From NCBI GenBank assembly GCA_025774805.1, contig JALGZR010000032.1, forward strand, positions 1 to 34,807: 34,807 bases of DNA. The letters are read 5' to 3'. This document shows positions 8,463 through 34,807 of this stretch, piece by piece. The notes under the pieces were generated by a model. That model ran no database searches, had not been told where the DNA came from, and was given only the letters and a program-made list of their open reading frames with translations. The stretch's first letter is position 1; the number at the start of each line of letters is the position of its first letter. Made by a program: the position numbers and the translations under genes. The DNA comes from a bacterium (GTDB taxonomy: Bacteria; ARS69).

Positions 8463-9533
8463 TCAGGGCGCGTCGACCTCGTTCCGGCTCGAATCGGTTT
8501 TCGTTTCCGCATGGACCTGTTTGAGCTCCGCCATCCGGTCACGGCACCGATCCATCCACGGTCCGTCGATGTACTCGTTCTTGATCCTTTTGAGAGCCTC
8601 GAATTCCCCCCGAGGCGTATAGGCGATCTCGCACGTATCTTCATCCATCTTTGTCTTGTGGCGATCGATGCCGCTTCCCGATTTCCGGTAGGGTGGGCCT
8701 TCGTCCGCGATCAACGTGAGCATGCCGAAGTACCGGGGTTCCCCCAACTCCAGAGTGAAGCGGAACTCATCGGAGCGCGAGGCGGAGGGAACGAAGTGAA
8801 GCTCCACGGCCTCGGTGCAACTCATTACACGTGGAGGGTCGAGCTCACAATCGTAATGCTCTTTGTTCTCTGCATCGCTCAGTTCGTAGTAAGCGACCAG
8901 GCTCGAGAGAGTGTAGTCACCGGGAAGAAGGTTTGGGAAGATCACCAAGTCGGTTTCGAATCGATCCGCGAGCACGGTACCCCCTACCCTGACCCCGGAT
9001 TCGTCGATGAGGAACCCTCGCCGGACGGGGGCCGACATGTCGGGCCCTCCGAGTCCGAAGACGTCATCCAGGATTCCTCCCAAGAAGCCCCTGGACCAGC
9101 CGAAAAGAGCCCGGGTCTCGATGACCAGCATGGAACTGGAATCGGGGGAGCCGAAATTCAAGGGGGGCTCTTCCGGAACGGGCTGACTCAGCTTCTCCAG
9201 GGGCGCGCATCCGGATGCGACGAAGAGAGCCCCGGCAAACGCGAAGAGAATGAGGAATGGTCTTGTGGCGACGCGGCCATTGACAACAGGGTCTGGTCTG
9301 CATTTCTCACCAGGCTCGTCACGAGGCTGTGGATAGTCGTGTCTGGCGAGGAGATGGGGTGCTTTCGCCCGAGGCGGGGCCGTAGCCCCGTCGCGGGGCG
9401 GAAGCGCCGCAACGACGACGCCAGACGCGGCTTGCCGCTGCCGCAGCAGAGGCTGATGAGATATGCAGGCTAGGGATCGGACGCAGGAAGTCCGAACGAG
9501 GATTCGATCGTAGAGCGTCCAAGAGTACCTCAT
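8463..9533 (-). CDS. Predicted lipoprotein with a MITE-like element in its 5' end
   Basis: The protein proper begins at a lipoprotein signal, 'ATRPFLILFAFAGALFVASGC', with Cys near 9202. No ATG, GTG or TTG lies in frame close before it. The nearest in-frame ATG is at 9533, and the frame between passes straight through the 174-base repeat element at 9298-9471 (58 codons, no stop). Either the element displaced the native start or it has added an internal segment to a long N-terminus. The mature part (about 245 residues) has a beta-rich region 'GGTVLADRFETDLVIFPNLLPGDYTLSSLVAYYEL' (approximate) resembling a carboxypeptidase-regulatory or Ig-like fold, then a conserved-looking Cys pair. Family not recognised. 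It is probably co-transcribed with the barrel-type protein downstream. Confidence 0.55.
   Translation of the reverse strand: MRYSWTLYDRILVRTSCVRSLACISHQPLLRQRQAASGVVVAALPPRDGATAPPRAKAPHLLARHDYPQPRDEPGEKCRPDPVVNGRVATRPFLILFAFAGALFVASGCAPLEKLSQPVPEEPPLNFGSPDSSSMLVIETRALFGWSRGFLGGILDDVFGLGGPDMSAPVRRGFLIDESGVRVGGTVLADRFETDLVIFPNLLPGDYTLSSLVAYYELSDAENKEHYDCELDPPRVMSCTEAVELHFVPSASRSDEFRFTLELGEPRYFGMLTLIADEGPPYRKSGSGIDRHKTKMDEDTCEIAYTPRGEFEALKRIKNEYIDGPWMDRCRDRMAELKQVHAETKTDSSRNEVDAP
9298..9471. mobile_element. MITE-like inverted-repeat element, copy 1 (longer)
   Basis: The left end CTGCATTTCTCACCAG is matched by the inverted right end CTGATGAGATATGCAGGCT. It shares CTCACCAGGCTCGTCACGAGGCTG (two pieces) on the left and GCCGCTGCCGCAGCAGA on the right with copy 2 at 13278-13363. 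The interior is longer and has its own stem, GTCTGGCG near 9340 with CGCCAGAC near 9420. No transposase gene is present. No target-site duplication was seen. The outermost bases of the left end differ from copy 2 (TGGT for AGCC), so that end may be trimmed. Confidence 0.7.
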
Positions 9534-9534
9534 G

Positions 9535-9777
9535 TCAAACCCCGTCGGAGAAGAGGGGAGATCTCGAGGACGAGAAGAGTATAGGCGTTCCGCCACGGAG
9601 CTCGGCGGACGTCGCATCGATGAGTTTGGTGGTGACGCCGGCCACGAACGGATTGCTGTCGGCGGGGAGGACCGAAGCGACGGCGCGAGCGACGGTTGGT
9701 GGGCGCGAAGCCTGAGTGGAAAGCGGCGTCGCAGTACGAGAGAGAGTGATCACCCCGAGGTCGGGAAACCGGGGCAT
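9535..9777 (-). CDS. Possible small protein, translationally coupled to the lipoprotein frame
   Basis: 80 residues. ATG at 9777 has a well placed GGAGGT site (9783-9788), and its TGA is followed after one base by the ATG at 9533. Third-position G+C is only moderately high, and the sequence (MPRFPDLGVITLSRTATPL...) matches nothing I recognise. It may be a real leader gene, or the remnant of the original 5' end of the gene that the repeat element entered. The good ribosome site is the main support. Confidence 0.3.
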   Translation of the reverse strand: MPRFPDLGVITLSRTATPLSTQASRPPTVARAVASVLPADSNPFVAGVTTKLIDATSAELRGGTPILFSSSRSPLFSDGV

Positions 9778-10146
9778 GCGACACCTCCGGGGGTCGAGCC
9801 GGACTCGAGGATACTCTCGCCGGGGGGCGAGAAACAAGAATTTAGAGTCGGGTATCCTCGCGCAGTGGTACCGGCGGATTCCCATTCCCTGGCAACGAGC
9901 TGAACCGACTCAAACTCCTCGGTGACTACGACTCTCGTGGACTCGGCCGCGCGGTTGCGGCTTGCCGGGCGGGGTCATGGCGTGGGCACCGAGCGGGGAG
10001 GGCCGGCACGCCAGGCCGGCCCCCGCCCCGCATTTCTCTTTTCGCGATTTCGAGCGGCCAACGGAATCGACGGACGCAGGGCTCGAGACAAGAAGCCCGG
10101 ACACCCCCGGGTTTCGCCCCGTTGGATGATGCGCTGCGCGCCGCGC
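9778..10146. other. Gap without a confident gene
   Basis: It holds a strong stem-loop at 10000-10022 (GGGCCGGC / GCCGGCCC with a 7-base loop, extended by G and C runs), downstream of the minus-strand gene ending at 10147. A T-rich stretch (10032-10041) lies on the plus strand only, so the hairpin is not a clean terminator for that gene. Frames here have poor codon character. Confidence 0.4.
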
Positions 10147-10779
10147 TCAGTTCCGATAGAGCGTCTTGATTCCCCCCCACGAGTGAGACTCCACCGAGAC
10201 CGGCTCGGTGCAGGTCTGACCGACGGCGGCCACCACGCCCGTTTCTCCTGCGTAGCCCGACTCGACCGTCTCGTAGAAGTAGTATTTCGGGGCGGTGTCC
10301 AGCCCCGGCGCGATGTAGGAAAACCCCGAAACGGTCTCTCCCGGATTGATCGGGTCTGTCGTGTTGGGCCAGTCCGGACCCCAAGTGTTGGACACCCACT
10401 GGAGCTGGGGATCCAGGTTCCGCGCATCATAGGCGGGATGGACACCGTCCAAGGGGGAGGCACCGGTCATCCAAAGGGGATGCGTGGACCACGATGCGGT
10501 GGGCGTCAGATCCGTGAGAACGGAGTAGACTCCGAAGTGCCAGATGTGGGCCGCGTCCACGTTCTCGAAGCTGTAAGAGTACTCGTAGAAACCGCCACCG
10601 AGATCGGTGATGGTCTCCAGGACGCACAATGGAGACCAGTAACCCCACTGAATGTCGCGCGGGTGGTCGGGCGTCGATCCTATGTCCGTGGTGACCGGAT
10701 TCGCGCCCGCGAGGGCAAACGTGGTCAGAGTCCAGACGGACACCGTCAGCGCGAGCAAACGGAATCGTCGCAAGTTCAT
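10147..10779 (-). CDS. Secreted protein with C-terminal VE-x3-WG-x-IK-x2-YR motif
   Basis: 210 residues from the ATG at 10779, eight or so bases after GGAGGG. Signal peptide MNLRRFRLLALTVSVWTLTTFALA. The mature part has strand-like segments and many aromatic residues ('DIQWGYWSPLCVLETI', 'GGGFYEYSYSFENVDAAHIWHFGVYS', 'KYYFYETVESGYAGETGVV', each quoted in part), which suggests a beta-sandwich. I do not recognise the family. The C-terminus, VESHSWGGIKTLYR-N, is the shared signature found on three other secreted proteins of this window. It is monocistronic, with 742 bases of gene-free DNA upstream. Confidence 0.85.
   Translation of the reverse strand: MNLRRFRLLALTVSVWTLTTFALAGANPVTTDIGSTPDHPRDIQWGYWSPLCVLETITDLGGGFYEYSYSFENVDAAHIWHFGVYSVLTDLTPTASWSTHPLWMTGASPLDGVHPAYDARNLDPQLQWVSNTWGPDWPNTTDPINPGETVSGFSYIAPGLDTAPKYYFYETVESGYAGETGVVAAVGQTCTEPVSVESHSWGGIKTLYRN
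10153..10194 (-). other. C-terminal motif, member 1: VESHSWGGIKTLYR
   Basis: Residues 196-209 of 210, followed by one Asn and the stop. It fits V-E-x3-W-G-x-[IL]-K-x2-Y-R exactly. Confidence 0.85.
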
Positions 10780-13099: not shown

Positions 13100-13279
13100 T
13101 TGGGGAGGCGAACAAACTACGGCTTCGAGAAGCGACAGAAAGAGATGAAGCGCCAGAAGAGGAAGGAAAGGAAGCTCGAGGAGCGGAGGGCGAGGAGGCA
13201 GGCGAGGAATGAGGCCGGTGATGAGGACGGAGAGGGAGCGGAGGGGGTGACCCAGGAGGGTGAAGAGGGGCGCGACTAG
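13100..13279 (+). CDS. Small highly basic protein, TTG start
   Basis: 59 residues. TTG at 13100 is chosen because AAGGAGG lies at 13088-13094, five bases before it; an in-frame GTG at 13022 has no ribosome site and would read through the terminator hairpin. Sequence: 'GRRTNYGFEKRQKEMKRQKRKERKLEERRARRQ', then an acidic tail 'DEDGEGAEG...EEGRD' (quoted in parts). It should form a long charged helix. Short proteins starting T-N-Y-x-F-E-K-R-Q-[KR]-E are common in diverse Gram-negative bacteria; their function is unknown, perhaps nucleic-acid or ribosome binding. Its TAG stop touches the left end of the repeat element at 13278. Confidence 0.7.
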   Translation: MGRRTNYGFEKRQKEMKRQKRKERKLEERRARRQARNEAGDEDGEGAEGVTQEGEEGRD

Positions 13280-13363
13280 CCTGCAATTCTCACCAGGCTC
13301 GTCACGAGGCTGCGGCAGCGGCTCTGCCGCTGCCGCAGCAGAGACTGATGAGATATGCAGGCT
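13278..13363. mobile_element. MITE-like inverted-repeat element, copy 2 (short)
   Basis: 86 bases. Left arm AGCCTGCAATTCTCACCAG, right arm (inverted) AGCCTGCATATCTCATCAG, and next to them an inner perfect pairing of CTGCGGCAGCGGC with GCCGCTGCCGCAG. The whole unit could fold into one long hairpin. It shares both ends with copy 1 (9298-9471) but lacks that copy's interior. It lies between the stop of the small basic gene and that of the response regulator at 13409. Confidence 0.75.
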
Positions 13364-13408
13364 GGAGTACGAAGCGGCACCACACGAATCGCCCGTGGAG
13401 GACGACCG

Positions 13409-33201: not shown

Positions 33202-34807
33202 CTACCGGAGCAGAACCGTCTTCCTCGTCACGACGCGATCGTCCGCCTCGATGCGGAGGAAGTAGACTCCGCTCGGCAGACCTTCCGCCCGCCAGGTCGT
33301 GAAATGAGGCCCGGATTCCCGGATCGCGTTGACGAGGGTCGCGACTCTTCGCCCCGACAGATCGAACACCTCGAGTCTCACGGGGCCCTCGACCGGGAGG
33401 GAGAAGTCGATTCGGGTGACCCGATCGAACGGGTTGGGTTGAATCGGACCCACGATCAGCCGGGCCGGCACGTCCGGCTCACCCGAGGCGATCGCCGTCG
33501 GGCCCAGGACGACCGTCTCGCCCTCGTAGGGCAGATAGTTCTGTCGGCACGCGGTGACCAGGAGCGTGCCGGCCGACGCCGCCGTGAAACCGAACGTCAC
33601 GCTTCCCCCCGACGTCTCGGCGACGTCGTAGATGTCGCCCTCCTTCCAGAGGCAGACCCGGACACCGTCCAGGGGCCCGCTCCCGTCGGACACCGCGACC
33701 GGAAAACTCACCGCCTCTCCCGCCCGGACCGTTGCGTCGTGGGTGACGGCGAGGCTCTGCGGATCGTCGGTCCAGAGAGACAGACCGGGATCGCCGAGAA
33801 GAGTCAGCTGGGTGAAGCAGTACTGGTGCAGGTTGTACGGGTCCTCGGGCTCATAGACGTCGTTCTTCAGGTGGGAGAAACACTCCCCGAGATGAACCGT
33901 TCCGAAGTCGAAGAGTTCACGGTAGAAGTAACGGTCCTGGCGAATGGAGTACTTGTCGCGATCCGGTGGCGCACCTCCCCACCCGTAACACGTGTTGCCG
34001 ATGAACGCGACGCATCCGCCGGCCGAATTGCGGACGAGAGCTTCCCCGATGCACAGCGGGTAGGAGAAATCCGCCGGATAACATCCCGTGGCGAGCATGA
34101 TGCTCTGACGACTCCCGTTCGTCAGTGCGGTCACGTCGGCAATGTCGAGGACGTCGCCGTGGCAGGTCGAACCGGCACCGAGTACCGTGATGTTGCAGTG
34201 CTCGTTGAGGTTCACAAGGTGGTGGCCCTGGTTGAAATAGCCGATGAAGTCCGCCTTGTGGGGTCCCGGTTCGCTGTCGTACTCGGTGTTCAGGACCCAA
34301 TGAGGAGGAACGTGCTGACTCCGGACGTCCTCTTTGCAGAGCTCGCCGTACTGATCGCCGGCCGAGTCGATGTCGAACCCGAGGAAGACCGCGCTCGCCG
34401 CGTAGTCGGCGAGCGGGGGAGCCATCTCATAGGTGAATACCTTGTCGAGGGCCGCGGCGATCGCGGGGGGGCCATCCACGGACATCCGTCCGACGTGAAC
34501 CTCGCAGATCCAGTCCTCGTCGTAGTCCGCGTAGTACGTATCGTTCGGGATGTCGTCGGTCCAGTACCCGGGGACGGTGATCGTCCGGATGTGCGCCGGG
34601 ATGTCGTTCGAGTCTCCCCCGAGCAGGAAGTAGGTCGCCCCCCACGTGGCGTGGGCATCCATGACGAAGGCGCGGATCTTCTCGACCACCGTACCGGTGT
34701 AGCCTCCCTCGTTGACGATCCAGCCCTTGGGAACCACGGTCGCGGGACGCCCGGTTCTCGTTCGCCAGTCGGCGAGCGGCTGAAAGGAGTCCGTCCAGGC
34801 GTGGCGC
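33202..34807 (-). CDS. Gingipain-type C25 cysteine peptidase with type-IX-like C-terminal domain (partial)
   Basis: At least 534 residues; the 5' end lies beyond the right edge, and the frame is open through it. The peptidase region starts 'WTDSFQPLADWRTRTGRPATVV', then 'IRAFVMDAHATWGATYFLLGGDSNDIP', as in C25 enzymes. A likely catalytic His lies in LVNLNEHCN and a likely Cys in MLATGCYPADF, then 'GGCVAFIGNTCYGWGG' and 'LTLLGDPGLSLW' (the family's usual end). An Ig-like domain follows ('AVTHDATVRAGEAVSFPVAVSD'). The last 80 residues are a FlgD/type-IX-sorting domain: 'IQPNPFDRVTRIDFSLP', 'VRLEVFDLSGRRVATL', 'GLPSGVYFLRIEA', ending KTVLLR. Predicted to be a secreted or surface protease. Confidence 0.92.
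   Translation of the reverse strand, partial: RHAWTDSFQPLADWRTRTGRPATVVPKGWIVNEGGYTGTVVEKIRAFVMDAHATWGATYFLLGGDSNDIPAHIRTITVPGYWTDDIPNDTYYADYDEDWICEVHVGRMSVDGPPAIAAALDKVFTYEMAPPLADYAASAVFLGFDIDSAGDQYGELCKEDVRSQHVPPHWVLNTEYDSEPGPHKADFIGYFNQGHHLVNLNEHCNITVLGAGSTCHGDVLDIADVTALTNGSRQSIMLATGCYPADFSYPLCIGEALVRNSAGGCVAFIGNTCYGWGGAPPDRDKYSIRQDRYFYRELFDFGTVHLGECFSHLKNDVYEPEDPYNLHQYCFTQLTLLGDPGLSLWTDDPQSLAVTHDATVRAGEAVSFPVAVSDGSGPLDGVRVCLWKEGDIYDVAETSGGSVTFGFTAASAGTLLVTACRQNYLPYEGETVVLGPTAIASGEPDVPARLIVGPIQPNPFDRVTRIDFSLPVEGPVRLEVFDLSGRRVATLVNAIRESGPHFTTWRAEGLPSGVYFLRIEADDRVVTRKTVLLR

Follow-up and report, generated by a model that had tools for sequence, protein, structure and literature searches.

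A MITE with IS1380-type ends lying in frame at the 5' end of a bacterial lipoprotein gene, and its rod-shaped relatives

Mobile palindromes that insert in frame are known, though rare, as a source of new protein segments, and the best-described cases are those of Rickettsia. The Rickettsia palindromic elements, as presented in the part of the source available, are about 150 bp long, carry one frame that is open from end to end, and are found inserted in frame in unrelated genes (PMC10969869). A second system is QMITE2 of Coxiella burnetii, which, according to the accessible portion of its description, measures about 190 bp, has inverted ends and small REP-like derivatives, and can extend a gene in frame (PMC5896051); IS1380 ends are not mentioned there for either QMITE1 or QMITE2. 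No published MITE with IS1380 ends was found in the open-licence literature: the word IS1380 does not occur in PMC10969869, and PMC4133298, PMC11578231 and PMC9330008, in the sections available, mention IS1380 elements and MITEs with no IS1380-ended MITE among them.

The stretch analysed here (hereafter the window) is a contig of 34,807 nucleotides (JALGZR010000032.1, assembly GCA_025774805.1) from a bacterium of the GTDB lineage ARS69. On its minus strand, at 8463-9290, lies a lipoprotein frame with a signal sequence and a lipobox (...FLILFAFAGALFVASGC...) that matches no Pfam family. Directly upstream is a full-length copy of a MITE, at 9293-9473, whose ends were set by aligning it to 29 further copies of the source genome; most copies have CTAG or a variant of it at both ends. 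The right terminal CTAG (the target or its duplication) is at 9470-9473, and a CTGG at 9293-9296, probably a decayed CTAG, closes the left end; between them the left inverted arm occupies 9297-9317 on the plus strand and the right one 9449-9469 on the minus strand. The original prediction had recognised an element here but placed it at 9298-9471 with a length of 174 bases; the element is real, and its limits have to be moved so that it spans 181 nt, a net insertion of 177 nt over a single CTAG. The net insertion, like the 174 bases first given, is a multiple of three. The label MITE-like has also stood up, given the copy number, the inverted arms, the CTAG target and the IS1380-type ends described below: copies are short (181-182 nt), have no transposase gene and end in inverted repeats of 18-21 nt. 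Rfam gave no match above the gathering score for this element, or for the elements of two loci from other genomes (L133 and L134). A second, shortened copy of 90 nt lies in the window between convergent genes (13276-13365), its left CTAG coinciding with the TAG stop of a short and weak ORF (13145-13279). At 33202-34737 the window also encodes a gingipain-type (C25) peptidase that carries a Por secretion tail, which suggests a type IX secretion system.

In the source genome the element is abundant. An arm pattern of 15 positions, allowing up to two mismatches, occurs at 530 sites in the 5.1-Mb genome, against 15 for the reversed control, and a profile of full copies detects 88 loci in 63 stretches totalling 1,242,312 bases, a copy number as high as that expected of MITEs. 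Copies longer than 160 nt make up 29 of these 88 loci; the rest are either palindromes, about 55-90 nt long, from which inner parts are missing, or copies with one decayed arm. At 5 of 30 loci a neighbouring element shares one CTAG. Among 58 distinct full copies, 26 measure 182 nt, 20 measure 181 nt and 12 have other lengths. Most elements are intergenic, only one of the 88 sampled loci lying inside a called gene, with placement counts of this kind resting on a crude gene caller. The element was not found in the plasmids searched, nor in viral contigs when these were searched for the exact arm pattern. A region of 4.4 kb between two facing arms (C55:31055-35421), considered as a possible autonomous copy, contains ordinary genes and was rejected.

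The preference for CTAG deserves comment, because this tetramer is some 12 times rarer in the 1.24-Mb sample than base composition predicts (306 occurrences against about 3,739). In the sample it is concentrated at stop codons and at element ends. One end of the element falls on the TAG stop of an incoming gene at 31 of 88 loci, while TAG stops of called genes account for 77 of the 209 CTAG sites outside elements; since these fractions are alike, a separate preference for stop codons was rejected, and the position of elements on the stops of neighbouring genes is explained by the rarity of CTAG and its concentration there. CTAG is its own reverse complement, so that a duplication of the two bases TA and one of all four bases look the same in this genome. 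In a metagenome-assembled genome (MAG) of Eisenbacteria (G061), one arm type is flanked by NTAG...CTAN (GTAG...CTAT, for example), and these flanks would favour a duplication of TA only.

Both the arm, CC(C/T)GCATNTCTCAC, and the CTAG on either side of it are common to the MITE and to the ends of IS1380-family elements, whose transposase is described by PF13701. IS1380-family elements on plasmids of Pseudomonas putida, Stutzerimonas and Bradyrhizobium have ends CCCGCATTT(C/T)TCACA between CTAG repeats, and the ends of these copies either read CCCGCATTTCTCACA or differ from it by one base. Of the 92 arms in full copies of the source genome, 29 have C at the third position, as IS1380 ends do. 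The Eisenbacteria MAG contains a full PF13701 gene (E 1e-155), and about 210 bases past it there is an end that differs from the arm at one of 17 positions; the opposite end of that IS1380 element was not found. The DNA preceding the gene resembles, by reading, another insertion sequence. When six plasmid relatives of this transposase were compared for their ends, three (L187, L189, L191) had matching ends between CTAG; in a Rhizobium copy (L186) the ends are similar but decayed (14/18), in IS1380A of Acetobacter (L188) the inner part of the end alone is shared, and in a Sinorhizobium copy (L190) no matching end was found. The MITE thus combines IS1380-like ends with the IS1380 target, as an IS1380-derived element would.

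Because the ends are alike, we infer that the MITE is moved in trans by an IS1380-family transposase. In the source genome itself, PF13701 is represented by a single C-terminal remnant of 113 residues (profile positions 319-433); no complete transposase of the family was found there, in an assembly of 284 contigs from which a copy may be missing, and there was no PF13701 match in a second genome that carries the element (G002) or in a MAG of Acidobacteriota. Other candidate mobilisers were looked for in the source genome and set aside: PF13358 (DDE_3, IS630 type), PF01609 (DDE_Tnp_1, IS4/IS5 type) and PF01797 (Y1_Tnp, the Y1/RAYT or IS200 type) gave no match, and the controls matched in 3, 9 and 5 of 14 genomes, respectively.

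The whole element folds as one long rod, with z-scores of -5.7 for the window copy, -11.1 for an Acidobacteriota copy and -12.4 for a copy from G002, and among 24 copies from three genomes compensatory change, with both sides altered at least once, is seen in 35 of 61 predicted pairs. The two arms of a copy also agree with each other better than shuffled arms do, at 833 of 966 positions where shuffling gives 798 (sd 6) in full copies, and at 632 of 840 where it gives 606 (sd 8) in short forms, an agreement that may be due in part to subfamilies. A covariance model built from the 24 copies, at E up to 1 and with both-strand matches of one copy counted, matched 70 times in the Acidobacteriota MAG, 46 times in the Eisenbacteria MAG, 12 times in G002 and 3 times in G004, with 2 weak matches in G001 and no match in G003; matches in G002 and at the Acidobacteriota locus L133 are expected, since the model includes their copies. 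At E of 0.001 or less, 7 of 193 genomes had a match, the source genome included, and five of these are outside the family. It therefore appears, as judged by the covariance model, that the same rod-shaped element is present in several bacterial phyla. Four G002 copies (L122, L123, L124 and L125) have cores that are 77-87% alike; their arms differ strongly from one copy to the next, each copy having two arms that complement each other, and the Eisenbacteria MAG has two arm types of the family, from which it follows that arms and core sometimes travel separately. By eye, several G002 copies begin at a TAG that may be the stop of the flanking gene, and one Eisenbacteria copy (L134 1-160) lies upstream of what reads as a thiC-like gene.

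What, then, does the window copy do to the lipoprotein gene? It was predicted that the lipoprotein frame has no stop within the element and stays open from ATG 9533 to the lipobox, and both statements are correct: a stop-free frame of 60 codons crosses the MITE on the minus strand (9294-9473), the lipoprotein continues in the same frame, and the frame is open from ATG 9617 as well. The in-frame ATG at 9531-9533 is the candidate start of an uninterrupted gene. Equally, no in-frame ATG, GTG or TTG occurs between the element and the signal sequence, as had been claimed, and the next in-frame start codon is 131 nt beyond the element. An ATG that does lie there (9278-9280, minus strand) is out of frame with the lipoprotein, and the same is true of an ATG in the MITE arm (9301-9303, minus strand) behind a Shine-Dalgarno-like GGTGA. 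Arms of this kind (GGTGAGANATGCAGGCTAG) read outward as GGTGA and ATG in the 1.24-Mb sample and at loci L002-L030.

A chimeric N-terminus translated through the element is possible, and so is a lipoprotein gene left with no start. A start at ATG 9533 would place about 30 residues before the hydrophobic core even with the element removed, which is long for a lipoprotein. The codon score and GC3 are -0.30 per codon and 0.60 in the stretch upstream of the element and -0.10 and 0.62 in the signal region, against gene means of +0.41 and 0.863 (sd 0.037). The main part of the lipoprotein is itself below the mean in GC3 (0.72-0.75), and the signal region, like the element and the 144 nt that precede it, has values of 0.60-0.62; with GC3 so low in the gene and its surroundings, codon use cannot decide for or against a start at ATG 9533. 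A search of positions 9200-10200 gave no promoter-like site. A homologue of the lipoprotein was found neither in the five other genomes searched (G001, G002, G003, G005 and G006) nor in the plasmid collection, which left no element-free allele for comparison.

An open frame characterises the 181-nt subtype in general, and the window copy is no exception: read in the direction and phase of that copy, 19 of 20 distinct copies of 181 nt contain no stop, versus 2 of 26 copies of 182 nt. Of these two lengths 181 nt alone keeps the frame of a gene; the commonest length, 182 nt, would shift it. Reading 44 full copies in every direction and phase gives 264 combinations, and 28 of these are open and also keep the frame, which means that an arbitrary copy would look like the window copy about one time in nine. 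In the peptide frame we count 63 synonymous changes where 51.3 (sd 5.9) are expected, a value reached by 60 of 2000 simulations; this may hint weakly at selection on that frame, and is no proof because the copies share ancestry.

Other copies also lie in frame at the front of genes. Read-through into coding sequence was sought in 86 arm pairs and then in 34 more, and four copies, judged from sequence, are convincing: the window copy, C55:71926, C11:42860 and C8:95092. Three of the 58 distinct full copies (the window copy included) and one short copy are therefore in frame inside a gene. The three full copies are all of 181 nt, with one direction and one phase, and all four lie near the N-termini of genes for exported proteins, the signal sequences having been read by eye without a predictor. 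At C55:71926 an ATG overlaps the stop of the preceding gene, 17 more codons resembling a signal peptide lead into the element, and the frame runs on past it for 1,085 more residues; at C11:42860 the element splits a signal-peptide-like stretch; at C8:95092 a 55-nt form lies in the linker after the signal-like sequence of an M28 peptidase. Three of the seven candidates from the 86 pairs (C105:53236, L066:3687 and L109:17349) were dropped for possible starts of their own close downstream, and the three candidates from the 34 pairs, all short, were not kept. In the Acidobacteriota MAG (L133 125-400) a copy follows the likely start of a DUF6599 lipoprotein by five codons, and its frame ends at a TGA in the far arm, with the ATG of the arm one codon later in the same frame; this looks like a stop and restart.

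We think that the best account, to which we assign a probability of roughly 55%, is that a non-autonomous MITE with IS1380-type ends entered the front of the lipoprotein gene in frame, at a CTAG. An IS1380-family transposase acting in trans would have brought the MITE into this minus-strand gene, probably among codons that lie downstream of a start near ATG 9533 and upstream of the hydrophobic signal segment. The gene would have tolerated the insertion for want of a stop: read as in the window copy, the 181-nt subtype is stop-free and adds 59 codons, and the product would be a lipoprotein with a long stretch encoded by the element ahead of its signal sequence. That the insertion is in frame near the N-terminus holds as a fact of sequence, and the idea of a coding insertion is made likelier by C55:71926, C11:42860 and C8:95092. 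Against it count the incomplete IS1380 transposase of the genome, the lack of an element-free allele and of a promoter-like site, the long N-terminus that ATG 9533 would imply, the weakly coding character of the upstream stretch and the fact that three frame-keeping cases are few when 20 of 58 copies have 181 nt. The serious competitor, which falls short of even odds yet has a substantial chance of being right, is that the MITE landed in the 5' leader and that the open frame is a property of its subtype without meaning here, the real start having been lost, having decayed, or being masked by a difference of one base in length (a mutation or an assembly error) near ATG 9280, which is one frame off. 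The position of that ATG near the signal sequence, in another frame, agrees with such a leader insertion, as do the region upstream of the element, which is not coding-like, the codon use of the lipoprotein, atypical as in a decaying gene, and the intergenic position of most elements (1 of 88 sampled loci inside a called gene). Against it are the two full copies and one short copy that read in frame at gene fronts elsewhere, and the likely start upstream of the element at C55:71926; on balance we lean slightly towards insertion in frame near the N-terminus, over insertion in a leader whose gene has its start lost or hidden.

Two further possibilities carry little weight with us. One is that the element provides the start, the gene downstream being translated from the GGTGA and ATG of the arm. 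This would suit genes that read as glycosyltransferase-like and CopA-like, in which the arm ATG is the first codon, and the DUF6599 lipoprotein of the Acidobacteriota MAG, which is in frame behind it; for the window, where the arm ATG (9303) is out of frame unless there is an error in the sequence at 9260-9303, we hold it to be very improbable. Outbound arms that have an intact ATG followed by coding sequence number 44, of which 20 are open and in frame and 13 are open in the other available frame (all three counts include some chance matches of the arm pattern), which is no clear excess, the third frame being closed by the TAG of the arm itself. More improbable again is that these repeats are palindromes of the REP/REPIN kind moved by a RAYT (Y1) transposase: the high copy number and the short palindromic forms of 55-90 nt would fit, but full copies of 181-182 nt have CTAG ends and IS1380-type arms, and the source genome has no match to PF01797.

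If the preferred reading of an in-frame insertion is right, an IS1380-ended family present in several uncultured phyla would widen what is known of the in-frame insertion of palindromes, and the dependence of transparency on length (181 versus 182 nt) would be a simple rule to tell which copies may persist within a gene. A second question is what preserves the covarying core when its arms are exchanged. A bolder view, which we regard as doubtful, is that a rod family spread over several phyla keeps its core and exchanges its arms, some of them of IS1380 type, and that the 181-nt subtype has become a "transparent" cassette, its open frame maintained by selection, which can enter signal-peptide regions and so lengthen exported proteins, much as Rickettsia palindromic elements do.

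With IS1380-family insertion sequences the element has its arm sequence and CTAG flanks in common; the MITE differs in having no transposase gene, and as far as the two were compared the likeness is one of ends alone. Like other bacterial MITEs, as characterised in the available part of PMC10969869, it is short, non-coding and mostly intergenic, has inverted ends and hundreds of copies, and forms a stable stem-loop; unlike them, it has a conserved rod-shaped core with arm sequences that differ across genomes. QMITE1 and QMITE2 of Coxiella burnetii are set apart by direct repeats of 7-9 bp in place of CTAG, going by the portion of PMC5896051 at hand. A further parallel, in a comparison by description with the accessible text on them, is with the Rickettsia palindromic elements, which likewise have one frame open from end to end and insert in frame into genes; the family described here differs from them in its hosts and in that 3 of 58 distinct full copies are in frame, all near the N-termini of exported proteins.
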